A stretch of 64,000 nucleotides of DNA from Phycisphaerae bacterium (lineage in GTDB: Bacteria > Planctomycetota > Phycisphaerae > FEN-1346 > JAACEH01), in contig JAAYDY010000056.1 in assembly GCA_012729015.1 (NCBI GenBank), positions 1-64,000 of the forward strand, written 5' to 3'. Numbering within the stretch: the stretch's first letter is position 1; the number at the start of each line of letters is the position of its first letter. Shown piece after piece: positions 5,056-61,020 of the stretch. The position numbers and the translations under genes are program-made. Below the pieces are notes generated by a model that made no database searches, was not told the origin of the DNA, and saw nothing but the letters and a program-made list of their open reading frames with translations.

Positions 5056-5408
5056 CAGGCGGGAAGGTTCCTGGCATTTGACCCTCACCGCCCCGAGCGG
5101 TGCTCGGGGCACCTCTCCCTGCACGCAGGGGTGCAGGAGCGTGCTTCGCACGCGGCGATTGACGGGAGACGCGTGGCTGCGGAGCAGCCACCCTACGCGC
5201 CGCGGGGCGTTCGGCGCGTAGGTCCGGAGGACCCACCCTACGCGCCGCGGGGCGTTCGGCGCGTGGGTCCGGGGGACCCACCCTACGCGATGTCGGGTCT
5301 GTTGACCCGACCTACGCACTCAACGCCTGCGATTCTTTCACAACCTCTGTTGACCCGACCTACGCACTCGCTGCAAGCAGGGCGAGGGGTCGATGGAGCA
5401 GCATGGCC
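5056..5408. repeat. Intergenic repeat cluster (modules D, B, B, A, A)
   Basis: An inverted module D lies at about 5081-5145. Two module-B palindromes follow (about 5217-5245 and 5264-5290), each with arms GGTCC and GGACCCACC. Two module-A copies follow at about 5293-5317 and 5347-5370, reading GTCGGGTCTGTTGACCCGAC or part of it. Adjacent copies share CGCGTAGG/CCTACGCG ends. Confidence 0.75.
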
Positions 5409-16574: not shown

Positions 16575-16594
16575 GTGTGGTCGCTTGACACAGC

Positions 16595-16807
16595 AGCGCG
16601 TAGGTCGGGTCAACAGACCCCAAGCCAACCGGTAGGGTGGGTCCCCCGGACCCACGCGGACATGCGTCACCCGCGCGTGCGAAACACGCACCTCAACCCC
16701 TCCCCCTTTCAGGCCGCGAACCCCTCTCCCTGCTCGCAGGGAGAGGTGCCCCGAGCTTTCAGCGAGGGGCGGTGAGGGTGGAACGCCACCGGCCCCGATT
16801 CCCGCGT
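16595..16807. repeat. Intergenic repeat cluster (modules A, B, D)
   Basis: Module A (about 16600-16622), module B (about 16632-16660) and module D (about 16735-16788) follow one another between the acidic-tail gene and the convergent maturase gene. Confidence 0.75.
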
Positions 16808-18070
16808 TCATTTGCCGCAGCATCGCTTGTACTTGAGCCCCGACCCGCACGGGCACGGATCATTGCGGCCCACGGCCCCGCCGCCCGCGGCCGCAGCACG
16901 CACCTGCCGCGCCGCACGCGCCTGACGTTCGGCCATCGCCTGCCGCTCGCGACGAATCGCCTCGGCCAGCCCGTCCAGTTCGGCCCCGTGCCGGTCCAGG
17001 AACAGCCGATACCCCTCGCACAGGTACGACCGCCGACGGTCCTCGTCCCCCCCCGCGAACGGCGTCTGCCGATCTTTCGGGCACCCGCCGTAGCACAAGG
17101 CCAGGTGCCGACACTGCCTGCATTCCTGCGAGCAGGCCCCCTTGAGCCCGCCGAACCGCTCGCGCCGCACACGCTCGTGAACATCCGCCAGGTCGTCGCT
17201 CATGACGTTGCCCAGCCGCCACTGGGGCTCGAAGAAGAAGTCGCACGGGAACAGGCCGCCGTCGGGCTTCACCAGCAGATACCGCCCGCACCGCTCGTCC
17301 AGCGTACACAGCGTGCCCTGCCCGAGCACCTTCCGCGACAACCAGTGGTCGAACGTGCGGATGCCGATGTCGCGGCGGCCGCTCTCGCGATACGCCTGCC
17401 ACAGGTCGCACAGGAACCGGCCGTACCCGTCGGGCGTCACGCTGAAGTCGGTCGCGCGACCGTCGTCGCCGCGCTCCACGCACGGAATGTATTGCAGATG
17501 CCGCCACCCCTGGGACAGTTGCCAGCGGAAGATTTCAGCCGCACGCTCCTGGTTGCCCCGATGCACCACGGTCAGGATGTTGTACTCGACGCGATGCTCG
17601 TCGAACAGCGCCGCCGCACGCAGCGCGTTGGCCAGGCTGCCGCCGCCCCGGGCGTCCACGCGCTCGGCGTCGTGAATCGCCGACGGCCCGTCGATCGACA
17701 GGCCCACCAGAAACCGGTACTCCGCCAGAAAGGACGCCCACGACGCGTCGATCACCTGCCCGTTCGTCTGAAGCGCGTTGCTGACCACCTGCCCGTCGCC
17801 GCCGTGCCGCTTCTGAAGCTCGACCACCCGGCGGAAGAAGTCCAGCCCCGCCAGCGTCGGCTCGCCGCCCTGCCAGCAGAACACGCTCACCGGCAGCCGC
17901 AACGCCAGGTACTTCCGCACCATCGTCTCCAGCACGTCGTCCGGCATCCGCCCCGGCAACGACCGGTCCGGCTCCAGTCCGTGCGAGTAGAAACAGTACC
18001 GGCAGGCCAGGTTGCACCGCGGCCCGACGGGCTTGATGAGCAGTTGGAACGGTTCGATGGGAACAGCCAT
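16808..18070 (-). CDS. Anaerobic sulfatase maturase (radical SAM, SPASM) with SEC-C tail
   Basis: The 420-residue enzyme converts an active-site Cys or Ser of sulfatases to formylglycine. Its radical SAM motif CNLACRYC places Cys at 19, 23 and 26. Other signatures are FCWQGGEPTLAG, YRFLVGLSIDGP, the SPASM iron-sulfur ligands around CTLDERCGRY and PDGGLFPCDFFFEP, and the CSQECRQC...CYGGCPKD cluster. The C-terminus adds a SEC-C zinc motif (NDPCPCGSGLKYKRCC), common in SecA tails but accessory here. No sulfatase gene lies in the window, so it acts in trans. Promoter geometry predicts a leaderless mRNA. Confidence 0.92.
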   Translation of the reverse strand: MAVPIEPFQLLIKPVGPRCNLACRYCFYSHGLEPDRSLPGRMPDDVLETMVRKYLALRLPVSVFCWQGGEPTLAGLDFFRRVVELQKRHGGDGQVVSNALQTNGQVIDASWASFLAEYRFLVGLSIDGPSAIHDAERVDARGGGSLANALRAAALFDEHRVEYNILTVVHRGNQERAAEIFRWQLSQGWRHLQYIPCVERGDDGRATDFSVTPDGYGRFLCDLWQAYRESGRRDIGIRTFDHWLSRKVLGQGTLCTLDERCGRYLLVKPDGGLFPCDFFFEPQWRLGNVMSDDLADVHERVRRERFGGLKGACSQECRQCRHLALCYGGCPKDRQTPFAGGDEDRRRSYLCEGYRLFLDRHGAELDGLAEAIRRERQAMAERQARAARQVRAAAAGGGAVGRNDPCPCGSGLKYKRCCGK

Positions 18071-18948: not shown

Positions 18949-18968
18949 GCCTGCCTCCTGCCGATCCA

Positions 18969-19114
18969 GCACGTAGGTCGGGTCAACGGACCCGACAGAA
19001 TAGTCATCCGCCGCCGGGTGCCATGCCTGCCCCGTCAGGCATGCATATCTGAGCGCATAGGTCGGGCCACCAGGCCGCAGCGCGTAGGTCGGGTCAACAG
19101 ACCCGACAGAGTAG
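18969..19114. repeat. Intergenic repeats: two module A copies around module H
   Basis: Module A copies (GGTCGGGTCAACrGACCCGA) lie at about 18973-18996 and 19084-19107, each followed by CAGArTAGTCA. Between them is module H (19021-19041). Confidence 0.75.
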
Positions 19115-20860
19115 TCACCCCCCGGGCTCGCGGTAACCGCCGGGGTGGACGTCCAGGATATCCAGCTCCACCGATTCGCTGTTGCGGAACCGGTTGATCC
19201 GCGGACGGAAGGCCACGTCGAGCGACTCGGCCCGCGCCACCTGGGTTTCCATCTCCCCACCACGCCACCAGACGGCCCGACGGCTCACGCCGCCCTGGGT
19301 CAGTTGCAGCGACAGGTGCGCTCCGGTCTTGCCCATGCGCTGCGGGGCCGTCGCCGTCGCGCACGCGCGCACCGCGAACGTCGGCCGCGAGTTCCCCTGT
19401 CCGAACGGCGCCAGACGCTGCAACTCGCCCACCGACTCCACGGTCAGCGACGCCAGGGTCGCCTCGGCGTCAATCGCCAGCGACGGCACCAGGTCCGCCG
19501 GCCTCAGCGCCTCGCGGCCATACGTCTCCAGCAACTCCGTCAGGCGCCCCACCTGGTCTGCCTCCAGCCGCAGACCGGCCGCCATCGCGTGGCCGCCGAA
19601 CCGAAGCAGGGCCGCGCTGCAATGCTCCAGCGCCTCGAACAGGCTGAACCCGGGAATCGACCGCCCCGAGCCCTGCCCGCGACCGTTCTCCACGGCAATC
19701 AGGATCGTCGGCCGGTGATACTGCTCCACCAGGCGCGACGCCACGATGCCGATCACGCCGGCGTGCCACTCGGGCGACGCCAGCACAATCGTCCGCCGGT
19801 CGCCGAGGCCGCCCTGCCCGTCGATCATCGCCACGGCCTGCGCGAAGATCTCGCGCTCCACGTCCTGCCGGCGACGGTTCACCTGCTCCAGCTCGGCCGC
19901 AATCTCTGCCGCCTCGTCGGCCGTGGCCGACGTCAGCAGCCGCAGCGCCTTCTCGGCCGACCCCATGCGCCCCGCCGCATTCAGCCGCGGACCGATGATG
20001 AACGCCACGTCGTGCTCCCGGACGCGCTCGTCGCGCAGCCGCGCCGACTCGACAATCGCCTCCAGTCCCGCGTGGTACCGACGATGCGATAGCGCCTTCA
20101 GGCCCATCGACGCCAGCGCCCGATTCTCGCCCACCAGCGGCACCACGTCGGCAATCGTCCCCAGCGCCGCCAGGCTCGTTGCGTCCGTCAGAAACCTCTG
20201 GAACTCCGGCGAGCACGTCGTGCCGTCCGCCAGGGCCAGCCCCACCGCCCAGGCCAGCTTGAACGCGATGCCCACCCCGGCCAGGTCGCGGAACGGGTAC
20301 GTCGAGCCCGGCAGCTTCGGATCCACCACCGCATACGCCTCGGGCACGTGTGTCTCCGGCTCGTGGTGGTCCGTGATGATCAGGTCCACGCCCAGCTCGC
20401 GCGCCAGCAACGCCTCCGCCGGACTCGTCACGCCGCAATCCACCGTCACGATCAGCGTGTGCCCCTCGCCGGCCAGTTGACGGATCGCGTCGCAGTTCAG
20501 GCCGTACCCTTCCTCGATCCGGTGCGGCACATAGACCGTCGGCACGAGGCCGGCCAACGACAGGCACTGGTACAGCACCGACGACGCCGTCAGCCCGTCC
20601 ACGTCGTAGTCGCCGTAGATGGCCACCTTCTCCCCGGCCCGCACCGCGTGCACAATCCGCTCCGCGGCACGCACCAGCCCCGGCATCAGTTCCGGCCGGT
20701 GCAGCGCCTCGTAGCCGCAGTTCAGAAACGCGCGACACGCCTCCGCCGTAGCCAGACCGCGGTTCATCATCACCTGCACCACGAGCGGACCGGCCCCCAC
20801 CTGCCGGCTCAGTGCGGCCACGGTGTCCGACGGCGGATAGAATGTCCAGCGTTTAGGCAT
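19115..20860 (-). CDS. recJ: Single-stranded-DNA-specific exonuclease RecJ
   Basis: The 581-residue 5'-3' exonuclease acts in recombination and mismatch repair. DHH-family motifs are visible: VAIYGDYDVDGLTASS (79-94), LIVTVDCGVTS, IITDHHEPE and FIIGPRLNAAGRMG. The DHHA1 signature FGGHAMAAGL lies nearer the C-terminus. The OB-fold domain ends the protein. The chosen ATG has GAGGT 5 nt upstream; the 23-residue upstream extension is not family-like. Length fits the family (about 560-580). Confidence 0.95.
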   Translation of the reverse strand: MPKRWTFYPPSDTVAALSRQVGAGPLVVQVMMNRGLATAEACRAFLNCGYEALHRPELMPGLVRAAERIVHAVRAGEKVAIYGDYDVDGLTASSVLYQCLSLAGLVPTVYVPHRIEEGYGLNCDAIRQLAGEGHTLIVTVDCGVTSPAEALLARELGVDLIITDHHEPETHVPEAYAVVDPKLPGSTYPFRDLAGVGIAFKLAWAVGLALADGTTCSPEFQRFLTDATSLAALGTIADVVPLVGENRALASMGLKALSHRRYHAGLEAIVESARLRDERVREHDVAFIIGPRLNAAGRMGSAEKALRLLTSATADEAAEIAAELEQVNRRRQDVEREIFAQAVAMIDGQGGLGDRRTIVLASPEWHAGVIGIVASRLVEQYHRPTILIAVENGRGQGSGRSIPGFSLFEALEHCSAALLRFGGHAMAAGLRLEADQVGRLTELLETYGREALRPADLVPSLAIDAEATLASLTVESVGELQRLAPFGQGNSRPTFAVRACATATAPQRMGKTGAHLSLQLTQGGVSRRAVWWRGGEMETQVARAESLDVAFRPRINRFRNSESVELDILDVHPGGYREPGG

Positions 20861-24808: not shown

Positions 24809-25335
24809 GGGCAAAGCCGAATCCCGCCAACGTCAGGGACCAGGTGCAGAGGGTGGCATGGCCACGCTCGCGTGGCCATGATCTGCCGCAACCGATGCGT
24901 GCGAAGCACGCCCAGCCAAACGCGTAGGGTGGGTCCCCCGGACCCACGCGCGCTTTCTCAGCCCGTAGGGTGGCTGCTTGACGCAGTCCCCGAGCACCGT
25001 CGAGGGGCCGTCAGGTTCCGAGCCTGTCGAGGAGCAGCCACGCGTCCCCCGCCGACCCGCCGCGTGCGAAGCACGCCCCTTTCACCCCTCGCCCTGCTTG
25101 CAGGGAGAGGTGCCCCGAGCTTCAGCGAGGGGCGGTGAGGGTCGAGCAACAGAAACCCCTCCCGCCGCGCTCTCAGTGCAGCCCTGCGGGCAACCCTCCC
25201 CCGCCAATCGGCCGGCGACATCTCCCCCCGAAATTCGGAAGAACCCGAAATAAGCCCCCATGCACGGCCGTTGAAAGGTGCATGCTGCGCGCAGCGCAAG
25301 CGGTGTGTGTCGGGCACCTTGGGGAGAACGTCGAA
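24809..25335. repeat. Long intergenic repeat cluster (modules F, B, C, D)
   Basis: A perfect palindrome with arms CATGGCCACG and CGTGGCCATG (24857-24880) is followed by module B (about 24925-24951), module C (about 24967-25042) and module D (about 25085-25146). The rest, to the ATG at 25336, shows no recognised feature. Together they fill the gap between purL and a divergent secreted-protein gene. Confidence 0.75.
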
Positions 25336-28033: not shown

Positions 28034-28599
28034 CAGGCGACAGGTCCACAAGGCCGGGCGCGGTAAGGGTCGAACGCCAGAAGCCCGCAGACGGCTGCTT
28101 GACGCAGCGCGTAGGGTGGGTCCCCCGGGACCCACGCGCCCCCCGTCAGCCCGCGCACGTAGATGGCTCCTTGACGCGGTTCCCGAGGACCGTCGAGGGG
28201 CCGTCGGGTTCCGAGCCTGTCGAGGGGCCGCCACGCGGAAGGTTCGCCGCATTCGGCATGCCTGACGGAGCGAGCCTGTCCGACAATTCGTTGCGTGGTT
28301 CGTTGTTCCTGGGTGCCATGCCTGCCCCGTCAGGCATGGGCGAGTTCCCTTACGCTTCCGCGTGGCTGCAAGCAGCCACCCTACGCCTGAGAAGTTTGTA
28401 ATGCCATGTTCCACAGCGTGTTGCGCGTGACGAATTGTCGGACAGCCTCGACGGAGCAGGCATGGCACCCGGCGAATTGTCGGACAGGCTCGACGAGGCA
28501 GGCATGGCACTCAACAGCAAGGACATTCGCCCCTTGCACCCAACAACAGGGACATTCGCCCATGTCTGGTGGCAGACAGGGCGACGGGCCGGCGGTCGT
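28034..28599. repeat. Long intergenic repeat mosaic (modules D, B, C, H, G)
   Basis: A module D tail (about 28050-28080) is followed by module B (about 28108-28137), module C (28159-28239), a half H (about 28255) and an inverted G. A full H (28317-28337) and the CAGCCACCCTACGCC end then follow. Two direct repeats each hold GAATTGTCGGACAG and GCAGGCATGGCAC (about 28431-28512). A short GACATTCGCCC tandem near 28523 and 28553 is also seen. No gene is detected. Confidence 0.7.
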
Positions 28600-30882
28600 C
28601 TATTGCCGCGCGGTGCGCGATGGGGTGATGATGCCGAGCCGGAGGGCGGCTTCGGCAATCTGGCGGGCCACAGGACCGGCGACCGTGCCGCCGCCGCCGC
28701 CGTTCTCGAACACGACGCTGAAGGCGATCTGCGGGTTCTCGGCCGGGGCGAAGCCGACGAACCAGGCGTGCGGCGGAACGCCGCGGCGCACCTGGGCCGT
28801 GCCGGTCTTGCCGGCGATGCGCACCAGGTCGCTATGGGCATGGCGGCGCCCGGTGCCGCCCTCCTCGTTCACAACGCCGGTCAGACCCGCGCGGATGACG
28901 GCCATGTGGGCCGGGGTCAGGTCCATGTTGACCCGGATAATCGGCCGGTCGGCCGGTCGCGGCGACTCGACCACGTGCACTTCGGTCATCCGTCCGTCGG
29001 CGGCGATCAGGGCCATGAACCGCGCCGCCTGGAGCGGCGTGACCATGATTCCGCCCTGGCCGATGGCCAGATTCTTCGGGTTCTCGGCGGCCGGGAGGTT
29101 GCCGGCCTTCTCGCCGGGAATCAGCAGGCCGCATCGCGTGCCGAAGCCAAACCGCCGGCCCCACAGACAGAGCTTCTCGGAGCCGACGGCCATGCCGGTG
29201 TGGTAGAAGTAGACGTTGCACGATTTGACGATGGCCTCGTGCAGACGGATGGGCCCGTGGACGCCGAGGCACTTGAAGTGGTCGGGGTCCCTGGCCGGAT
29301 CGAAGATGCCGTTGCAGACGAAGACGGTCGAAGGCGTGATTCTGCGTTCGTGCAGGGCGGCGGTCGCGGTGACGGCCTTGAAGATGGAGCCCTGGGAATA
29401 CTGGCCGCCGATGGCGCGATGGACCAGGGGCTTGCCCTCGGCGGTGCGCAGGTCGGGGAAGTCGTCGGCGAACGTATTGAGGTTGTATCGCGGCAGGGAG
29501 ACCAGGGCCAGCAGAGCGCCGGTGCGGATGTCGATCACCACGGCGGCGCCGCGAACGACGCCCGAGGACTCCGGCGGCGTGGGCGGCCGCGACATGAACG
29601 CCTCGATCTCGCTCTGAAGGGGCACGTCGAGCGTCAGCCGCACGTCCTGTCCCGGCTCGGGCGGCTCGTGCCGCAGGAGGACGTCGGCCTTGTCGCGATG
29701 CTCCATGCCGCGGCGTCCGCGCAGCTGCCGTTCCATGCCCAGTTCCACGCCCGTGACGCCAACCATGTCGTGCAGCCGATAGGCCCGTCGCGGGTCTTCG
29801 GCGGCGTCGCCGTTGCCGTCGGGGCTGGAGCCCAGAATCTGCTCGTCCACTTCCGTGACGCGGCCGACGACATGGGCGGCGCAATCGTTGTACGGGTACA
29901 CGCGCTTGGCGTGTTGCTCGAAGACGAGCCAGCCATAGTCGGTCTGCATGGCGGCGACGATGGCCTTGGTGACTTCGTTAACATCGACAAGGATCGGGTG
30001 AGCCAGCCCGCCGGGGCCGCCCACCTCCTCGCGGATCGGCACGGAGCGCCCGTGGCGCTGCTCGACGGCCCGCTTGCGGGCCCGGACCATCTGGAGGACG
30101 CCGATGCGCCGCTCGTCGAACACGGCGACATCGATGCCCGTCATGGAGGCCAGCCGCGGCCAGAACGCCGACAGGTCCTGGGCCAGCGCCGGCGACAGCT
30201 CGGGCCGGCCCGGGTTCAGGGCCGTGAACCGCGCCCCGTCGATCCAGAGGTCGGCCATGAGCTGCTCGACCTCCGCCTCCGACAACCGCGGCGCGCCGGA
30301 CGCCGAGTCCCGCAGGCGGTCGATGGCCGCATCGACGTCGTCGGCGGTCAGGCGTCCCTGCTCGGCCAGGAGCCGGGCCAGTTCGGCGTCGCGCGAGGCC
30401 AGCAGCTCGGACCATCGGCGGTCGGCGGCCGCGCGGCGGCAGAGCGAACTGTCCTGCCCGGCGGCGGCAATCAGCAGGTCGAGCCGCCGCCCGTCGGCGA
30501 ACGCCTGCCGCAGCACATCGTCCTGAAGCCGCGCGGAGAACAGGATCAGCGACAGGTCGCTGCGTGCGGCGATGCGGCGGACCAGCGCGGGGTCTTCCAC
30601 GGCCAGGTGCGGGTAGTAGACGCAGACGTCGAAACTGGCGGTGTCTTCGGCCAGGACCAGGCCGTTGCGGTCGCGGATGGATCCGCGGCGCGTTTCCAGC
30701 AGCGTCGGCGGTCGGATGAGGTTGGCCCGGGCCTCGCGCTCGTAGCCGGCCGCCCCGACCCACTGGAGTTGCCCGAGGCGCAGAGCCAGGGCCACCATGG
30801 CCAGCGCCACGACCCCCAGGAACAGTTTCAGGCGACTCCAGTACATGCGGCAGCGGCATCCACTCGTGCGGTGACGTTCCAA
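28600..30882 (-). CDS. mrdA: Penicillin-binding protein 2 (elongasome transpeptidase)
   Basis: The 760-residue inner-membrane transpeptidase cross-links side-wall peptidoglycan with MreBCD. One N-terminal helix (LKLFLGVVALAMVALALRLG) anchors it. Transpeptidase motifs are SIFK (Ser499-Lys502 in YSQGSIFKAVTA), SCN (about 552) and KTG (AGKTGTAQV, about 691). It is about 100-150 residues longer than usual, with an extra helical segment (about 120-240, RRWSELLASRDAELARLLAE) before the dimerisation domain. The TTG start has GAGG upstream; an ATG at 30846 is an alternative. It is last in the mre cluster; no rodA is in the window. Confidence 0.95.
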   Translation of the reverse strand: MERHRTSGCRCRMYWSRLKLFLGVVALAMVALALRLGQLQWVGAAGYEREARANLIRPPTLLETRRGSIRDRNGLVLAEDTASFDVCVYYPHLAVEDPALVRRIAARSDLSLILFSARLQDDVLRQAFADGRRLDLLIAAAGQDSSLCRRAAADRRWSELLASRDAELARLLAEQGRLTADDVDAAIDRLRDSASGAPRLSEAEVEQLMADLWIDGARFTALNPGRPELSPALAQDLSAFWPRLASMTGIDVAVFDERRIGVLQMVRARKRAVEQRHGRSVPIREEVGGPGGLAHPILVDVNEVTKAIVAAMQTDYGWLVFEQHAKRVYPYNDCAAHVVGRVTEVDEQILGSSPDGNGDAAEDPRRAYRLHDMVGVTGVELGMERQLRGRRGMEHRDKADVLLRHEPPEPGQDVRLTLDVPLQSEIEAFMSRPPTPPESSGVVRGAAVVIDIRTGALLALVSLPRYNLNTFADDFPDLRTAEGKPLVHRAIGGQYSQGSIFKAVTATAALHERRITPSTVFVCNGIFDPARDPDHFKCLGVHGPIRLHEAIVKSCNVYFYHTGMAVGSEKLCLWGRRFGFGTRCGLLIPGEKAGNLPAAENPKNLAIGQGGIMVTPLQAARFMALIAADGRMTEVHVVESPRPADRPIIRVNMDLTPAHMAVIRAGLTGVVNEEGGTGRRHAHSDLVRIAGKTGTAQVRRGVPPHAWFVGFAPAENPQIAFSVVFENGGGGGTVAGPVARQIAEAALRLGIITPSRTARQ

Positions 30883-30915: not shown

Positions 30916-31049
30916 GGCAAGCAAGAACACACGCGACTCACGAGCGTTCGGTCAGCATGTAGGTCGGGTCAACAGACCCGACGCGACGACACAAGGACAA
31001 ACGCATGCCTGACGGGGCAGGCATGGCACCCGGCCGTTGCGTGGCCGAT
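30916..31049. repeat. Distal copy of the mreD 3'-end duplication, with modules A and H
   Basis: A 40-bp stretch (30916-30955) matches 31581-31618 except for a 2-bp insertion. It is followed by module A (about 30960-30982) and module H (31003-31025). It forms one edge of a 0.66 kb inserted segment. Confidence 0.85.
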
Positions 31050-31423
31050 TTGTGATTGTCCGCCTCATTACCCTCCGATACGGAGTCGACCGATAGGGAC
31101 TTGCGAAGGCGGAGAAGCCATGGCCTCCCACGAGGAAACACCCATAGGGCGAACAAGAAAAGCCCGGTCACGATGAGAGCGATTCCGCAAGATGCGACCC
31201 CCTCCGGAATACCCTCGTCGGGCGTTCCCTCGCGGAAGACCCTGAGGATAAAGGCTGCTGCAACCCAGGATCCAATGGCAACTCCACAGACCAAGGCAAG
31301 AGGCATCAGCTCGTGACGCAGACCCGCCCAATCGACGGTTACACCTCGAATCCGCTCCTCGCTCGTCGCCTTGCCTGGACGATCGCCACTGCAACCGCCT
31401 TCAGCATCCTTACTGGCAGGCAT
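30938..31423 (-). CDS. Small two-helix membrane protein in an inserted segment
   Basis: The 161-residue protein has two hydrophobic helices (LALVCGVAIGSWVAAAFILR and ASCGIALIVTGLFLFALWVF). Its start is backed by GGAGG 7 nt before the ATG. Base composition is visibly less GC-rich than its neighbours. The last about 40 residues translate repeat modules H and A and then the duplicated mreD end, so both genes finish in LTERS. The native C-terminus was probably lost. Function is unknown. It lies between mreD and mrdA but is likely not an original member of that operon. Confidence 0.6.
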   Translation of the reverse strand: MPASKDAEGGCSGDRPGKATSEERIRGVTVDWAGLRHELMPLALVCGVAIGSWVAAAFILRVFREGTPDEGIPEGVASCGIALIVTGLFLFALWVFPRGRPWLLRLRKSLSVDSVSEGNEADNHKSATQRPGAMPAPSGMRLSLCRRVGSVDPTYMLTERS

Positions 31424-31551
31424 ATGTCAGCCTCCATTCTCTTGGACCTCACGCCGCTCGCTTATCCGCCGCATCACCGCCGCCCCTTTCGAGCCAAGGC
31501 TGGCACCGATAGACCAGATACTGCGAACACACCGACAGCGCACTCCGCTCC

Positions 31552-31619
31552 CCATGCCTGACGGGGCAGGCATGGCACCGGGCAAGCAAGAACACGCGAC
31601 TCACGAGCGTTCGGTCAGG
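31552..31619. repeat. Module H next to the original mreD 3' end
   Basis: Module H (31552-31574) abuts the stretch 31581-31618, which includes the mreD stop codon (31601-31603) and is duplicated at 30916-30955. Together the two copies bracket the small membrane-protein gene. Confidence 0.8.
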
Positions 31620-32128
31620 CGGCCGCGGTGGGTGGCCAGGCGCGCCGTCACCCACAGGAACGGCCACGCCAGGACGGCCGTGTAGAGGGCGTCGCCCAGG
31701 GTTTGCTCCACCAGGAGCCCGAAGCCGACGCTTGCCGCCGAGGAATGCCACGAAACGATCATCAACTGCACCGGACGCACGGCCAGCACCATGGCGGCCG
31801 CCAGCACAATCTGCGTGGCGGGCCGCTCGTAGACCAGCACGGGTCGCATGCGGCAGATAGCGTAGCTGCACAGGGCGAGCATCAGGGCCATGGCCCCCAG
31901 GCGCTGGCTGCCCGGATCCGTGAGGTCGGCCACCATGCCGATGACCCAGCCGGCGATGAACGCTTCCTCGCCCCGGGCCACCAGGGCCACCAGCAGCGCC
32001 ATCAGAACGAACAGGTCGGGACGCAGGTCGGCATGGAACGGGCGCAGCGCCAGCAGCCGCGGCACAAACAGCATGGTCTGGAGCACGGTGCAGCACCAGC
32101 CCAGGATGATGAAGACGAACCATCGCAT
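31601..32128 (-). CDS. mreD: Rod shape-determining protein MreD
   Basis: The 175-residue inner-membrane protein has about five to six helices (FVFIILGWCCTVLQTMLFVP, LFVLMALLVALVARGEEAF, FIAGWVIGMVADLTDPGSQR). It links MreC to the rest of the elongasome. Length and the early PDLFVLMALLVAL motif fit MreD. It starts 55 bp after mreC. Its 3' end (RLTERS and stop) is duplicated 0.66 kb downstream. Confidence 0.88.
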   Translation of the reverse strand: MRWFVFIILGWCCTVLQTMLFVPRLLALRPFHADLRPDLFVLMALLVALVARGEEAFIAGWVIGMVADLTDPGSQRLGAMALMLALCSYAICRMRPVLVYERPATQIVLAAAMVLAVRPVQLMIVSWHSSAASVGFGLLVEQTLGDALYTAVLAWPFLWVTARLATHRGRLTERS

Positions 32129-39431: not shown

Positions 39432-42107
39432 GTGAAGACCGACGACATCAGGCAACGGTACCTGGACTTCTTCGCCGGGCGCGGGCACAAGCTCGTCGCC
39501 AGCGACAGCCTCGTTCCGACGAACGATCCGACCCTCCTGTTCACCGGGGCCGGCATGAACCAGTTCAAAGAGGAGTTCATGGGGCATGTGACGGACTTCA
39601 CCCGGGCCACGACGTGCCAGAAGTGCGTCCGCACGGGCGACATCGACAACGTGGGCGTCACGCCCTTCCACTTCACGTTCTTCGAGATGCTGGGCAACTT
39701 CTCGTTCGGCGACTACTTCAAGCGCGACGCCATCCGGTGGGCCTGGCAGTTCATCACCGAAGAGATGAAGTTCGACGCCAGCCGCCTGTATGTCACGATC
39801 TACAACGACGACGACGAGGCGTTCGACGTCTGGACCAAAGACGTGGGCCTGGCGGCCGACCGCGTGTACCGCTGCGGCGAGCACGACAACTTCTGGCCGG
39901 CCGACGCGCCGAGCCTCGGGCCCAACGGGGTATGCGGCCCGTGCAGCGAAATCTACGTGGACCGCAAGCCCGGCCCGCCCGTGCCGCCCGAGGGGCCCAG
40001 CAGCGACAACCGCCGGTTCGTCGAAATCTGGAACCTTGTCTTCACGCAGTTCGACCGCCGCGATGGCGGCAAGCTGGTCCCGCTGCCCCAGAAGAACATC
40101 GACACGGGCATGGGCCTGGAGCGCATGGCCGCGGTGATGCAGGACGTCCCGACCGGCTACGACATCGACCTGATGCTGCCGATCGTTCAGGCCGCCGCGA
40201 AGCTGACGGGCCAGACGTACACGGTCGGCGAGGCGGGCAAGGTGGGCCAGCGGCTGCGCCGCATCGCCGACCACACGCGGTGCGTGGCCATGTCAATCGC
40301 CGACGGGGCCCTGCCGGACCGTTACGGTCGCGGGTACGTGATTCGCCGCCTGATCCGGCGCGCGGCCCTCGACGGCCGCCACCTCGGCGTGGCCAAGCCG
40401 TTTCTGCACAAGCTTGTCGAAACGGTCGTGGCGCAGATGGCGCCGACGTACCCGGACCTGCGCGAGCGCGTCAAGACGATCACGAGCATTCTGCGCGGCG
40501 AGGAGCAGCGGTTCGCCGAGGCCCTGGACAACTCCAAGGGCATCCGCGAGTTCGAGGACGAGCTTCGCCGCGCCGCCGGCGGCGACAAGCGCATCGACGG
40601 CGAGCGCATCTTCTACTTCGTGGACACGCACGGCCTGCCGCTGGAGTTCATCGACGACCAGTTGGCGTCCGAGGATGTGACCTACGACCGCGAGGTGTTC
40701 GAGAAAGCCATGGAGGCCCGTCGCGAAGAGAGCCGCGCGGGCAGCAACATCAGCGACGAGACGATGATCTTCAAGGGCGTCGCGCTGACGCCGGAGACGT
40801 TGACGGCCCTGCGTCATCAGTCGCTGGCAAGCGAGTTCGTCGGCTACGAGGCCACGGAGGCCGAGGCGCGGATTCTCGCGCTGATCGGCCCTGAGTCGTT
40901 GCTGGAGCGCGCCGAGGCCGGGCAGGCCGTGACGGTCCTGCTGGACCGCACGCCGTTCTACGCCGAGGGCGGCGGCCAGGTGGGCGACGCCGGCGAACTG
41001 ATCGGCGCCGGCGGCCTGCGGCTCCGCGTGGGCAACGCGTTCAAGGACCACGAGTTCCACCTGCACGCCGCCGAGGTCGTGGCCGGCACGGCGCGACCCG
41101 GGGCCGGCGTCACGGCCCGCGTCGATGCCGCCCGCCGCATGGACATCGCCCGCAACCACACGGCCACGCACATGCTGCACTGGGCGCTGCGCAAGGTGCT
41201 TGGCGAGCACGTTCACCAGGCCGGCAGCGAGGTGACGCCGGCGCAACTGCGGTTCGATTTCACGCACACGGCGGCCATGACGGCCGACGAGCTGGCCGGC
41301 GTGGAGCGCCTGGTCAACGAGCGCATCTTCGAGGATGCCGCCGTGAGTTCGCAGGTGACCACGATCGACGAGGCCCGCCGTGCGGGGGCCATGGCCCTGT
41401 TCGGCGAGAAGTACGGCAACGAGGTCCGCATGGTCTCCGTGGGCGACTTCTCGCGTGAGTTGTGCGGCGGCACGCACCTGGAGCGCAGCAGCCAGGTCTG
41501 CTTCTTCAAGATCGCCGGCGAAGGGTCCGTGGCGGCGGGGGTGCGGCGCATCACGGCCCTGACCGGCCGCGGCGCGGCCGAGTACGTCACCCGCGAAGAG
41601 GACCTGCTGGACCAGCTCATGGCCCGCCTGAAGGCCAACAACGCCGAGTCGGCGATTCAGCGCGTCGAGGCCCTTCAGAACGAGGTCAAGACCTTGAAGC
41701 AGGATCTGCACAAGGCGCGCAGCGTGACCGCCCGCAACGGGGCGGCCGACCTGTTTGCCAACGTGCAGGACGCCGGGGGCGTGCCGCTGGTGGCGGCGGA
41801 GATTCCCGGCGGCGACGCGACGGCTCTGCGCGAGGCCGTGGACCTCGGCCGCAAGAAACTCGGCTCGGGCGTGCTCGTGTTCGGCTGCCGCGAGGGCGAC
41901 AAGGTGACCCTTGTCGTCGGCGTGACCAAGGACCTGGTCGAGAAAGGGCTGAAGGCCGGCTCGATCATCAAGGATCTGGCCGCGGTGGTCGGCGGCGGCG
42001 GCGGCGGACGGCCCGACATGGCCCAGGCCGGCGGCAAGCTGCCCGAGAAGCTCCCCGACGCCATCGCCCAGGCCGCCGAGGTCGTGGCGCGGCACGCCAA
42101 GGCGTGA
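39432..42107 (+). CDS. alaS: Alanyl-tRNA synthetase
   Basis: The 891-residue class II synthetase charges tRNA-Ala. Catalytic motifs are LLFTGAGMNQFK and HFTFFEMLGNFSFGDYF. The editing domain has NHTATHMLHWALRKVLG and the zinc-binding SRELCGGTHLE. The C-Ala domain (VVGGGGGGRPDMAQAGG) ends the protein. Length matches the family (about 870-900). The GTG start has AAAAGGG 9 nt upstream. The 120-nt leader shows no T-box features. Confidence 0.98.
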   Translation: MKTDDIRQRYLDFFAGRGHKLVASDSLVPTNDPTLLFTGAGMNQFKEEFMGHVTDFTRATTCQKCVRTGDIDNVGVTPFHFTFFEMLGNFSFGDYFKRDAIRWAWQFITEEMKFDASRLYVTIYNDDDEAFDVWTKDVGLAADRVYRCGEHDNFWPADAPSLGPNGVCGPCSEIYVDRKPGPPVPPEGPSSDNRRFVEIWNLVFTQFDRRDGGKLVPLPQKNIDTGMGLERMAAVMQDVPTGYDIDLMLPIVQAAAKLTGQTYTVGEAGKVGQRLRRIADHTRCVAMSIADGALPDRYGRGYVIRRLIRRAALDGRHLGVAKPFLHKLVETVVAQMAPTYPDLRERVKTITSILRGEEQRFAEALDNSKGIREFEDELRRAAGGDKRIDGERIFYFVDTHGLPLEFIDDQLASEDVTYDREVFEKAMEARREESRAGSNISDETMIFKGVALTPETLTALRHQSLASEFVGYEATEAEARILALIGPESLLERAEAGQAVTVLLDRTPFYAEGGGQVGDAGELIGAGGLRLRVGNAFKDHEFHLHAAEVVAGTARPGAGVTARVDAARRMDIARNHTATHMLHWALRKVLGEHVHQAGSEVTPAQLRFDFTHTAAMTADELAGVERLVNERIFEDAAVSSQVTTIDEARRAGAMALFGEKYGNEVRMVSVGDFSRELCGGTHLERSSQVCFFKIAGEGSVAAGVRRITALTGRGAAEYVTREEDLLDQLMARLKANNAESAIQRVEALQNEVKTLKQDLHKARSVTARNGAADLFANVQDAGGVPLVAAEIPGGDATALREAVDLGRKKLGSGVLVFGCREGDKVTLVVGVTKDLVEKGLKAGSIIKDLAAVVGGGGGGRPDMAQAGGKLPEKLPDAIAQAAEVVARHAKA

Positions 42108-42335: not shown

Positions 42336-42401
42336 GCCGGGGCAGGCTCCGGGCGTCGTGCTGCGACGGCCGCGACCGACCGGACCACAGGGGAGCATCG
42401 C

Positions 42402-43424
42402 GTGAACACTGGCGGCAAGACTACCGTATTCGTCACGGGAGCCACGGGGCTGGTCGGATCGCACCTGGTGGAACGCCTGACGGCCGAGGGCGTCGAGGTG
42501 CGGTGCCTGGTTCGCTCGAGCAGCAGGACGGAGTTGCTGGAGCGGCTCGGCGTCCAGCGCGTCGTGGGCGACGTGACCGACGAGCCGGCCCGGCTCCGCG
42601 AACTGATCGGCGACGCGTCGCTGGTGTTTCACTGTGCGGCGATGGTGGACGACTGGGCCTCGCGCGAGGCCATGGTCCGCGTGAACGTCGAAGGGACGCG
42701 GAACCTGCTGGAGTCCTGCCGCGGGTTGCCGGGCCTGCGGCGGTTCGTCATGGTCGGCAGCATGGTGGTCCTGGGCATGGGACCGCAGATTCACTTCGAC
42801 GAAACCGCCCCGATGGTCCACACGGGCGACAACTACAACTACACAAAAATCCTGGCCACCGAGATGGCGATGAAGTACGCCCGGGAGCACGGCGTGCCGG
42901 TGGTCGTCTGCCAGCCGCCGTACATCTACGGTCCGCGGGACCAGCAGTTCTTCCCGCGCGTGTTCGAGGCGCTGAAGTCGGGGCGGTTCAAGTATCTCGG
43001 CGACGGCAACCAGCCGCTGACGCTCGTCTACGTCGCGAACCTGGTGGAGGCGCTGCTGCTGGCGGCGGCCAAGGACGGCGTCCAGGGGCAACTGTTCCTC
43101 GTGACCGACGGCGAATCGGTGACCCGGCGCGAACTGGTCGAGATGGTCTGCGAGGAAATGGGCTACCGCAAGCCGACGGTCTGCGTGCCGGTGGCGGTGG
43201 CCCGGGCGCTGCTGCCGCTGGTGGAGTGGCTGGGCAAGGTCCGCGGCAAGCGGCCGATCCTGAACCGGTTCCAGATGAAGTTCCTGAGCACTCCGCTGAC
43301 GTTTAACATCGCCAAGGCCCGGACCGTGCTGGGTTACGCCCCGGTCGAACCGCCGCGCGAGAGCCTGCGGAAGACCATCCGCTGGTACCGTGAACATCAC
43401 AAGGAGATGCTGCCGGGGGGCTGA
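42402..43424 (+). CDS. NAD-dependent epimerase/dehydratase (extended SDR)
   Basis: The 340-residue Rossmann protein has the cofactor motif FVTGATGLVGSHLVE (9-23). The active-site tyrosine lies in NYNYTKILATEMAMKYA, with YIYGPRDQQFFPR downstream. The C-terminal RTVLGYAPVEPPRESLRKTI is typical of the dihydroflavonol-reductase/3-beta-HSD-like group. It acts on a sugar nucleotide, sterol or polyketide-like substrate that cannot be told from sequence. GGGGAG precedes the GTG start. It stands alone. Confidence 0.88.
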   Translation: MNTGGKTTVFVTGATGLVGSHLVERLTAEGVEVRCLVRSSSRTELLERLGVQRVVGDVTDEPARLRELIGDASLVFHCAAMVDDWASREAMVRVNVEGTRNLLESCRGLPGLRRFVMVGSMVVLGMGPQIHFDETAPMVHTGDNYNYTKILATEMAMKYAREHGVPVVVCQPPYIYGPRDQQFFPRVFEALKSGRFKYLGDGNQPLTLVYVANLVEALLLAAAKDGVQGQLFLVTDGESVTRRELVEMVCEEMGYRKPTVCVPVAVARALLPLVEWLGKVRGKRPILNRFQMKFLSTPLTFNIAKARTVLGYAPVEPPRESLRKTIRWYREHHKEMLPGG

Positions 43425-47935: not shown

Positions 47936-48340
47936 GGGTGTGCCCAAAGACTCTGGCATGTGCGGCAGTCGTTCGCCAAAGCACGCACGGTGATCGTTCG
48001 CGAGAGCACGCACGGAGGTCGTTCGGTGGAATGGACGGTCCTGGGCCTCAGGCCTTCTGGGTTGGCCCCTGGCACGCCGGCACCCGAGGCCCGAAGGGCC
48101 GACGAGAGTTAAGCCGGGGGCGAAGGCTCGACGGCCGTTTCGTCGAGCCGCCGCCCCCGGTAGCGGCCTCCTCAATAATCCCAAGCCCCGAAGGGGCGCG
48201 ACCTGTTCTGTGGCCCAACAGGTTGCGCCCTTTCAGGGCTTAGAGGAAAAGTCGGGGCTCGGGTACCGGAGGCTCGGTCCGGCCAACGACGGCCGGCCCA
48301 GCGCCTCCGGCTACACTCTTGCCGGCCCTGTCGGGCCTGG
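47936..48340. repeat. Composite palindromic element E, copy 1
   Basis: Parts in order: head TCTGGCATGTGCGGCAGTCG (about 47950); hairpin GGCCCGAAGGGCC (about 48088); a nested hairpin with arms CCGGGGGCG/CGCCCCCGG and GGCTCGACG/CGTCGAGCC (48114-48160); a 59-bp nested palindrome from AAGCCCC to GGGCTT (48183-48241); and a 75-bp tail (48264-48338) with arms CCGGAGGC/GCCTCCGG. It fills most of the gpsA-kinase gap. Confidence 0.8.
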
Positions 48341-48512
48341 GTTCTTGGTCCGTATGCAGAGTTCGGCAGAACGCAGGCGGTCCTCACGCCTGACCTCCGC
48401 CATTCCGCCCGTCACCTGCCGCAGCAAGACGACCTTTGTCGTGCGGCCAGAAGGATCGGGCACACCCGAGCCGACTCATCCGCCCCGTCGCAGGCGTTTG
48501 TCACACAGCATC

Positions 48513-48715: not shown

Positions 48716-50509
48716 ATGTCGGTGGTCGGCAGGGAAGCGAGTGGTCCGCCCATGGCGAATCTGACGGTAATTCAGGGAGACGATCGCGGGAAGGTCTTCG
48801 ACCTGCGCGGATCGCGCATTGTCCTGGGCCGCGACCCGCAGTGCGAGGTGTCGCTGACGGACCACAGCGTGTCGCGGCACCACGCCGAGCTGCGCATCGA
48901 GGAGGGCAAGTTCCACCTGATCGACCACGCCAGCTCCAACGGCACGTTCGTCAACGGCGAGCGGATCGACGAGGCGGTGGTGCGTCCCGGAGACCAGATA
49001 CGCGTCGGCGCGGTGATCCTGACGCTGGGTCGGGTGGTGACGCAGCCGCGGTTGACCTCGGGCGGGCCGGTCTACATCGACGAGGCCGGCAACGTCGTGG
49101 ACGCGGCGATCCAGGCGACGGCCCGCAGCGAGTTCGATCCGCTGGTGGCGCTGACGGAGCGCGAGGACCAGGCGAGCCAGCGCCGGGCGGCCGAGAATCT
49201 GAAGGTCCTGTTCGAGTTCTCGACCACCCTGGGCGCCATCCTGAACACGCAGCAGTTGTGCGACGCGATCCTGGACATGGTGTTTGAGGTCGTCGACGCC
49301 GACCGGGCGTTCATCCTGCTTCACGACGAGGCCTCGGGAAGCATCGTGCCAAAGGCGGTGCGGTTCCGCGACGACCTGATCGGCGAGATCGAGGCCGAGC
49401 GCGGCAGCGGCCAGAAACAGGCCGAAGGCGAGCAGCCGAAGCAGCCGATCCTGGTGTCGCGGACCATCGTCAACTACTGCCTGGACCACGGCGAGGGCGT
49501 GCTGGCGACCAACGCCATGCAGGACCGCCGCTTCGAGCAGGGCGACTCGGTGCAGGACCTGGGCATCCGCAGCGCCATCTGCGTGCCGATCAAGGCCCGG
49601 GACCGGCGCCTGGGCGTGCTGCACGTGGACACCCAGATTCAGCAGCGCCCGTTCACCGAGGTGGACCTTCGCATGATGACGAGCGTGGGTTACCTGGCGG
49701 GCCTGGCGCTGGAGAACACGCAGCTGGTGGAATCGGCGTTGCGGAACGAGCGTCTGGCGGCCGTGGGCGAGGCCGTGGCCAGCCTGTCTCACTACATCAA
49801 GAACATCCTCCAGGGGCTCCAGGGCGGCGCGAGCGTCATCGAGACGGCCCTGAAGGCCGACGACCTGGGCCGCATCCGCCGCGGATGGGAAATCGTCCGC
49901 CGCAACCAGACGCGGATCAACGACCTGGTGCTCGACATGCTGCACTACAGCCGCAAACGCGAGCCGGTGCGACAGCAGCAGAACGTCAACGCCGTGCTGC
50001 GCGAGGTGATCGAGCTGGCGGCGCCCCGCGCGGCTGAGAAGCAGGCCGAGGTGGTGAGCCGCCTGGACCCGGGGCTGCCGGAAATCTGGATCGACCCGAA
50101 CGGGATTCATCACGCGTGCCTGAACATCGTGGCCAACGCGATCGACGCCGTGGAGCGGCGGACCGGGCGGGTGACGGTGAGCACGTCGGTGGAGGAGGCC
50201 GGATCGGGCCGCCGTCGGGACCGCCGACGGCAGTTCGTCATCACGGTGGCCGACAACGGCGTGGGCATTGCCGAGGAAGACCTTCAGCGCATCTTCCAGG
50301 CGTTCCATTCGACCAAGGGGCACCAGGGAACCGGTCTGGGCCTGGCGGTGTCGCAGAAGATCATCCACGAGCACGGCGGGACCATCGAGGTCGAGAGCCA
50401 CGTCGGCGGCGGCTCGACGTTTACGATCCGCCTGCCGATCGTCGAGCCGCCGGTCGCGGCCGCGGCCACGGGCCCGGAGGACGAGTCGGAGAAGACGCGG
50501 CTGGGCTGA
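48716..50509 (+). CDS. FHA-GAF sensor histidine kinase
   Basis: About 597 residues, no transmembrane helix. The N-terminal FHA domain (about 15-105) has IVLGRDPQCEVSLTDHSVSR and HASSNGTFVNGERI, so it binds phosphothreonine. A GAF domain follows (about 150-320; LCDAILDMVFEVVDADRAFI). The dimerisation helix carries the phosphorylated His in EAVASLSHYIKNILQG (about 362). The HATPase_c domain shows VADNGVGIAEEDL and GTGLGLAVSQKIIHEHGG. It suggests cross-talk between Ser/Thr phosphorylation and two-component signalling. No response regulator lies adjacent. A TTG at 48713 or an ATG at 48752 (MANLTVIQGD) are alternative starts. Confidence 0.9.
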   Translation: MSVVGREASGPPMANLTVIQGDDRGKVFDLRGSRIVLGRDPQCEVSLTDHSVSRHHAELRIEEGKFHLIDHASSNGTFVNGERIDEAVVRPGDQIRVGAVILTLGRVVTQPRLTSGGPVYIDEAGNVVDAAIQATARSEFDPLVALTEREDQASQRRAAENLKVLFEFSTTLGAILNTQQLCDAILDMVFEVVDADRAFILLHDEASGSIVPKAVRFRDDLIGEIEAERGSGQKQAEGEQPKQPILVSRTIVNYCLDHGEGVLATNAMQDRRFEQGDSVQDLGIRSAICVPIKARDRRLGVLHVDTQIQQRPFTEVDLRMMTSVGYLAGLALENTQLVESALRNERLAAVGEAVASLSHYIKNILQGLQGGASVIETALKADDLGRIRRGWEIVRRNQTRINDLVLDMLHYSRKREPVRQQQNVNAVLREVIELAAPRAAEKQAEVVSRLDPGLPEIWIDPNGIHHACLNIVANAIDAVERRTGRVTVSTSVEEAGSGRRRDRRRQFVITVADNGVGIAEEDLQRIFQAFHSTKGHQGTGLGLAVSQKIIHEHGGTIEVESHVGGGSTFTIRLPIVEPPVAAAATGPEDESEKTRLG

Positions 50510-54954: not shown

Positions 54955-55630
54955 GGCGAAAGCTCCTTGAGTGTATGCCGCTCGCGGCAGGCGCGGGGGC
55001 GGGCAACGGTCTCCACCGCCGGCGCGCCGACACGCTCTCGCGTCGCGGCACCCTCATCATGCCAGCAAGGGCCGCACCGTGCAAGCGGATTTGGCGGGAG
55101 GACGGGAGCGTGAGCATGCCCACAGACTCTGGCATGTGCGGCAGTCGTTCGCCAGAGCACGCGTGGCGGTCGTTCGTTGGAGTAGACGGTCCTGGGCCTC
55201 AGGCTGTCGAGGCCCACTCCTGGTGCGTCTGCATCTGAGGCCCGAAGGGCCGACAGTCAATAGCCGGCGGCGTGAGCCGCCGGAACGTGCCCCCGCGACG
55301 CGAAGCGAGCCCCAACGGGGGCGGCAGTGCCTCTGCCTCTGCTGCGCACTGCCGCCCCTGGCCGGGGCTGGTGCTGGCGGAGAAGGCTTCCGGCGGCTCA
55401 CGCCGCCGGCTACTGACTACCGCCCTTTCAGGGCTTGGAAGGGACGATCCTCCTCCCTCGCTCCGCTACGATGTGAGTACCGGAGGCTCGGTCCGGCCAA
55501 CGGCGGCCGGCCCAGCGCCTCCGGCTACACTCTTGCCGGCCCTGTCGGGCCTCGGCTGTCGTTCATCGCGCGGTTTCCGGCACGAGCAGACGCTGCTACC
55601 CTCGACAACGACCTTTCCGCCGTTGCCGTT
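54955..55630. repeat. Composite palindromic element E, copy 2, with module F
   Basis: Head at about 55110-55160. Hairpin GGCCCGAAGGGCC (about 55238-55250). A 164-bp nested palindrome (55255-55418) has 31-bp outer arms matching at 30 positions and 13-bp perfect inner arms (GGGGCGGCAGTGC, 55318-55330; GCACTGCCGCCCC, 55346-55358). Hairpin GCCCTTTCAGGGC (about 55422) and the 75-bp tail (about 55478-55552) follow. A module F copy (55639-55657) lies just beyond, inside the kinase 3' end. No gene is seen in this gap. Confidence 0.85.
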
Positions 55631-60664: not shown

Positions 60665-61020
60665 CTGGTGGGGCGCCCGGCCGTTGGGGTGTGCCCAAAG
60701 ATTCTGGCATGTGCGGCAGTCGCTCGCCAGAGCATGCGTGGCGGTCGTTCGTTGGAGTGGCCAGCCCAGCGCCTCCGGCCTTCTGGGTTAGCTCCTGGCA
60801 CGTCTGCACCCGAGGCCCGAAGGGCCGACAGTCAATAGCCGGCGGCGTGAGCCGCCGGACCTTGCCCGGTGACGCGACGTGAGCCCCCAACGGGGGCGGC
60901 AGTTCGTTTGCCTGCGCCGCGCACTGCCGCCCCTGGCCGGGGCTGGTCTCCTTGGAAAAGCCGACTTCCGGCGGCTCACGCCGCCGGCTACTGACTTCCG
61001 CCCTTGCAGGGCTCATACGT
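60665..61020. repeat. Composite palindromic element E, copy 3
   Basis: Head at about 60693-60745. Hairpin GGCCCGAAGGGCC (about 60814). A nested palindrome at 60830-60996 has outer arms like copy 2 and inner arms GGGGCGGCAGT/ACTGCCGCCCC. The downstream hairpin is degenerate (CGCCCTTGCAGGGC). It lacks the 75-bp tail but has a fragment (CAGCCCAGCGCCTCCGG) near 60762. Confidence 0.85.

Follow-up and report, generated by a model that had tools for sequence, protein, structure and literature searches.

In a 64,000-nucleotide stretch of a Phycisphaerae bacterium genome (assembly GCA_012729015.1, contig JAAYDY010000056.1, positions 1 to 64,000; hereafter the window), the cell-shape genes mreD and mrdA are separated by a 625-bp insertion bracketed by two copies of the mreD 3′ end. 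We consider it likely that a composite of a repetitive extragenic palindrome (REP) and a second palindrome, here termed H, inserted at the end of mreD and duplicated its target, probably in a replication-coupled manner, and that insertions of the same type took place elsewhere in this genome. What moved was most likely this GTAG-REP/H composite and not the gene that the insertion also contains. The genome is represented by one draft metagenome-type assembly, of which 2.16 of 4.45 Mb were read; contigs are designated by C and a number.

On the minus strand, the gene order is mreB, mreC, mreD, insertion, mrdA, and the insertion, taken from its mrdA end, comprises a GTAG-tagged REP, a first copy of H, an open reading frame (ORF) of 161 amino acids, and a second copy of H (Table 1). 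A preliminary description of this DNA had reported the repeated mreD end with a 2-bp indel, and direct comparison bears this out: copy B of the duplication reads GGCAAGCAAGAACACGCGACTCACGAGCGTTCGGTCAG, and copy A differs from it only by an additional AC (GT on the coding strand, a slip within a GT run). The longest exact match between the two copies is 27 bp at a spacing of 663 bp, which is far above chance, since, in a full set, shuffled and random-interval controls produce between 0 and about 1.4 comparable repeats. The small gene and mreD do share an LTERS-stop ending, the former in copy A and the latter in copy B. Likewise, the gene between the copies, described as lower in G+C and encoding two membrane helices, has two hydrophobic segments (residues about 38–63 and 72–99), with a G+C content of 0.607 and 0.63 at third codon positions (GC3), against a GC3 of 0.89–0.90 in mreB, mreC, mreD, and mrdA. 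H had been thought to abut both copies of the duplication, which holds for copy B; at copy A, it is the GTAG-REP that abuts, and H is set about 20 bp deeper into the insertion. A misjoin or other assembly artefact is unlikely here, as contig ends share exact 127-bp termini, pointing to an assembler k of 127, a length well above that of the 31- and 38-bp repeats.

Table 1 Features of the mreD–mrdA junction (positions in the window).
Feature	Position	Strand	Remarks
mrdA (PBP2)	28600..30882	-	Pfam Transpeptidase and PBP_dimer
Copy A of the duplication	30916..30955		One extra AC relative to copy B
161-aa ORF	30938..31423	-	Two predicted membrane segments, foreign codon usage; no family found
Whole insertion	30956..31580		625 bp; not in the mreD–mrdA junctions read in relatives
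GTAG-tagged REP	30959..30982	+	GTAGGTCGGGTCAACAGACCCGAC; forms the element's outer edge toward copy A
Canonical GTAG-REP, spacer, and H composite	30959..31030	+	72 bp
Palindrome H, first copy	31004..31034	+	
Shared segment	31465..31548	-	84 bp upstream of the 161-aa ORF; matches C90, C82, and C32
Palindrome H, second copy	31553..31583	+	Adjoins copy B and overlaps it by 3 bp (GGC)
Copy B of the 38-bp duplication	31581..31618		Last codons of mreD, stop, and 20 bp
mreD	31601..32128	-	Pfam MreD PF04093, E 3.9e-06; native 3′ end in copy B

The insertion is a derived state. Eight genomes of the order were compared, including this one; G001 belongs to the same family and the remaining relatives to the same order. 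An mrdA gene with an N-terminal match was found in six genomes of the order besides this one, and the probable mrdA start here (ATG at 30837, MYWSRLK) is like that of G001 (MYWTRLK). In G001, G003, and the other genomes of the order whose junction was read, mreD is followed directly by mrdA at a distance of 80–265 bp, with no repeat or small gene between them, and the 161-aa gene was not found in the seven relatives. Because no such gene is found in these genomes and the junctions read pass straight from mreD to mrdA, the 625 bp between the copies represent an insertion, and because the MreD C-terminus of G001 (RRGTLSARTG-stop) matches that of copy B (HRGRLTERS-stop; aligned by eye), copy B is the native mreD end. 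The gene-free junctions thus support the earlier proposal of a cassette insertion with target duplication or a repeat-mediated rearrangement, and we judge the wording "insertion that duplicated its target" to be right. Other genera with the same small gene and C-terminus, which would have contradicted that proposal, were searched for and not found, with no relative of the gene in 41 near genomes or, above noise, in 298 genomes of the class.

The GTAG-REP is a hairpin with an 8-bp stem and an AACA loop preceded by GTAG (GTAG followed by GTCGGGTC-AACA-GACCCGAC), and its folding stands out at z = -4.1. In the composite, a spacer of ~20 bp separates this hairpin from H, and at mreD the stretch running from GTAG through the first H spans exactly one such unit, with the gene and the second H beyond it. 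H occurs in 106 copies in the genome, and its exact main form was found 104 times here and 0 times in 297 other genomes of the class; GC directly follows H in ~90% of copies. There are 243 GTAG-type edges in 1.5 Mb, and the nearest GTAG repeat on the inner side of H points outward in 23/32 cases. Across 2.16 Mb, we counted 35 GTAG-H units, 19 of which measure 70–79 bp. REP-associated tyrosine transposases (RAYTs) are transposases tied to REPs, and two RAYT genes adjoin the repeats in this genome: one on C78 (ORF 74936–75490; NCBIfam NF047646, 186 bits) stands directly behind GTAG GTAGGGTGGGTC repeats, and the second, on C17 (103 bits), lies between H copies. Further GTAG-REP/H arrays occupy intergenic spaces of the window at 5170–5372, 16594–16809, 18967–19124, 24911–25044, and 28057–28500. 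Many contigs (C17, C19, C25, C26, C45, C47, C51, C65, C66, C69, C73, C78, C82, and C115) end no more than ~65 bp from H, within a longer near-identical composite repeat of at least 127 bp.

The mreD insertion is one of several alike in this genome, and at least five other genes carry the same scar. Following a pilot on 45 H copies, scans of 1.5 Mb and 2.16 Mb placed 4 of the 35 units (two on C78, and one each on C70 and C26) between exact or near-exact direct repeats (alignment score of at least 18), compared with 0.0 under shuffled pairing. Both units on C78 (C78a and C78b) are clean single-unit insertions, with exact duplications of 24 and 25 bp. Among genes, the 3′ end including the stop codon is duplicated around repeats in a nagZ-like gene of glycoside hydrolase family 3 (C25; 191 bp, 2 mismatches), xseA (C74; 35 bp), an hpnB-like glycosyltransferase gene (C26), and an SMP-30-like ORF (C24; ~92 bp), while at focA (C107) 23 bp of the gene end are duplicated around repeats, followed by diverged sequence; gene names outside the window come from family searches. 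Each site duplicates a different sequence, and the lengths, 38 bp at mreD and 24, 25, ~35, ~58, ~92, and 191 bp elsewhere, range from about 23 to 191 bp. We also took the last 24 nt of 1317 ORF-based genes and sought a second copy within 1 kb: four duplicated ends were recovered, and all four have repeat blocks between the copies, whereas as much repeat is present in only 6–19% of intervals of equal length downstream of genes. A control 24-mer taken from 300 bp inside genes was duplicated in 1/1066 cases. This gene-end scan misses mreD, whose duplication includes just 18 nt of coding end, and a first scan by block missed both mreD and focA, where blocks are split (merging over 700 bp was no help, as neighboring repeats then fuse). 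The random-interval control over all blocks yielded about one long duplication, due to coding repeats, and the gene-end and unit-based tests are therefore the cleaner ones.

We propose that a REP-type, non-autonomous element of ~72 bp would have entered the mreD 3′ end and duplicated 38 bp; as the duplication included the stop codon, MreD kept its own end. The 161-aa gene and the second H may have been gained in the same event, or later through recombination between H copies. Short overlaps are found at several junctions (CAG and GGC at mreD, CCCAG at focA, and GCGT at C78a), which suggests template switching coupled to replication. A nascent strand would quit the target where a few bases match the edge of the element (CAG on the GTAG side), copy the element, and return at another short match (GGC on the H side) some bases upstream, so that the intervening stretch would be copied twice and the return distance would set the length of the duplication. 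Single-strand cleavage by a RAYT (TnpA_REP-type) may be the initiator; plain RAYT cut-and-paste does not predict the duplication, as the movement of IS200/IS605 elements makes no larger target duplications (PMC2817692). Returns in the forward direction would instead leave deletions, visible only against an empty site, which may be why most units lack a duplication. Finally, selection would retain insertions whose duplication spans the stop codon, since the upstream gene then retains its end.

Several points weigh against this scenario. No long flanking repeat is found at 31 of the 35 units, so most insertions are old, of the deletion type, or made by another route, and a gene is carried in the mreD case only. 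The nagZ, C78b, and C70 cases could be tandem duplications of repeat plus flank, and the 2–5 bp overlaps could be conserved ends of the element itself; with GC after H in most copies, target preference and microhomology are indistinguishable. In addition, genes were called from ORFs and GC3 rather than by a gene finder.

Among other explanations, recombination between H copies alone comes closest, and we rate it only slightly below an even prospect. Here, the mreD–mrdA spacer would already have held H, the gene and one H would have entered by homologous recombination, and the gene would be the sole recent insertion. The two H copies are indeed near-identical direct repeats flanking the gene (30/31 positions), and GTAG at 30959 to the end of the first H at 31030 makes exactly one unit of 72 bp; however, the 38-bp duplication is left unexplained and still requires an insertion event. 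Such recombination is compatible with the composite insertion as a second step. We find it unlikely that the mreD end, or this end together with a repeat, was first duplicated in tandem by slippage, with repeats and gene moving in later. The nagZ case resembles a tandem repeat of gene end plus REP array, REP clusters are known to be reiterated together with flanking DNA (PMC3733652), and C78b lies beside a pre-existing degenerate repeat. Nevertheless, at mreD, xseA, and C78a the copies sit flush against the repeat block on either side, and none of the three has, behind the second copy, the further repeat block that a tandem duplication of end plus repeat predicts. Filler DNA captured by end joining at a staggered double-strand break would yield variable target duplications and short overlaps, as observed, but it appears quite improbable given that Ku was not found in this 94%-complete genome and that the inserts always belong to one repeat type and have recurrent edges, unlike random fragments. 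A conventional DDE transposase moving a miniature inverted-repeat transposable element (MITE) would fit a palindromic element that is short, non-autonomous, and present in many copies, and whose edges recur; we hold it to be very improbable, as a fixed stagger should give one duplication length instead of lengths between about 23 and 191 bp, and the element has unlike ends that form no terminal inverted repeat pair. Site-specific cassette integration of the tyrosine integrase or integron type would account for the reconstituted mreD 3′ end as a rebuilt attachment site with the same short sequence on both sides, but is the least credible of all, since the duplicated sequence and its length differ from one insertion to the next and the insert contains neither an integrase nor attC.

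These repeats resemble several known systems without coinciding with any of the following three. Like GTAG-tagged REPs (PMC3733652), they have GTAG at the foot of an 8-bp-stem hairpin, are present in many genome copies, are mostly extragenic, and flank a RAYT gene; moreover, GTAGGGTGGGTC resembles the Haemophilus parasuis REP GTAGGGTGGGTCTTGACCCACC given in PMC2817692. They differ in that the REP is joined to a second, unrelated palindrome, and in that some copies stand between long direct target duplications, an arrangement for which no description was found in the literature searched. With REPINs (PMC3116915), they share a unit of two outward-facing palindromes and a spacer in a RAYT-bearing genome; yet a REPIN is one REP present twice in opposite orientation, whereas the present unit has ends from two separate families, GTAG-REP and H, and target duplications of ~23–190 bp occur. 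RAYT genes beside repeats (C78 and C17) also recall IS200/IS605 and TnpA_REP/RAYT transposition (PMC2817692, PMC8266576), from which the 38-bp duplication at mreD departs. It is conceivable, although we advance this only tentatively, that the GTAG-REP/H composite represents a previously undescribed class of miniature element, replication-coupled and possibly RAYT-started, which would duplicate tens to ~190 bp, land in the last codons without breaking genes, and carry foreign genes into conserved operons. Landing in the last codons would be harmless because the duplication often covers the stop codon.

The 161-aa gene is best read as an acquired, foreign-looking passenger. It has a GGAGG start context, and its codon score falls below the first percentile of the long ORFs of this genome, yet its own frame is the best of six. 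Nothing significant was found in Pfam, NCBIfam, PHROGs, or PADLOC, IMG/VR contained no relative, and there was none in the 41 near genomes and none above noise in the 298 class genomes. Class-wide matches at E 0.001–0.1 were rejected as weak membrane-segment or compositional similarity. The preliminary description had proposed a database search for a native C-terminus, and no homologue was found; what could be established is that the last ~30 residues (RPGAMPAPSGM...GSVDPTYMLTERS) are the translation of H, REP, and the duplicated mreD end, and that this translated repeat sequence has taken the place of the original C-terminus. An H-derived PGAMPAPSGM tail is common to this ORF and a short-chain dehydrogenase/reductase (SDR) gene on C17 (piece L089, ORF 558–1397), whose C-terminus is translated H (KPGAMPAPSGM; KPGAMPAPSGMRFGG). 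H repeats thus shape protein C-termini.

As for the source of the gene, the shared segment upstream of it recurs over ~60–84 bp at C90:38688, C82:22087, and C32:7551, each time directly behind a small gene of GC3 0.55–0.66. At C90, an Rhs core fragment starts where the segment ends (43% identity over 97 aa to the Rhs ORF on C11, E 2.6e-19), and at C32 an Rhs-like stretch follows it (by eye). This suggests that the gene perhaps came from an orphan Rhs toxin/immunity region: as in the orphan immunity regions of Rhs and other polymorphic toxins, the passenger adjoins a segment otherwise found behind low-GC3 small genes, two of the three beside Rhs core fragments, although the insert has neither a toxin nor an Rhs core and the gene shows no match to any known immunity family. 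The segment itself may mark where orphan toxin/immunity modules are joined by recombination. No GTAG/H repeats occur in the Rhs ORFs on C15, C11, and C6, hence the repeats are not usually housed at Rhs loci as such.

Other repeats were also encountered. At C67:48656–49484, an ORF for an IS200/IS605-type transposase (48774–49217, minus strand; NF033573, 65 bits) is flanked by two 116-bp direct repeats from a different family, and repeats resembling this family occur in the window near 47966–48350, 55117–55564, and 60692–61013. On C31, a 90-bp exact repeat (41724–41813 and 42356–42445) encodes YINSPGGYLSSTMAIYDTMQFIE, resembling two adjacent ClpP-like genes.

Overall, an insertion flanked by long target duplications preserves, as a footprint, the start and end of the event, and insertion models thereby become testable by sequence alone. 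The spread of REPs in bacterial genomes, including how TnpA_REP brings it about, has been described as unresolved (PMC8266576). Such insertions also show how tight operons such as mre/mrd can take up repeats and passenger genes without harm to the upstream gene, and, as the tail common to the 161-aa ORF and the SDR gene illustrates, repeats create new protein C-termini.
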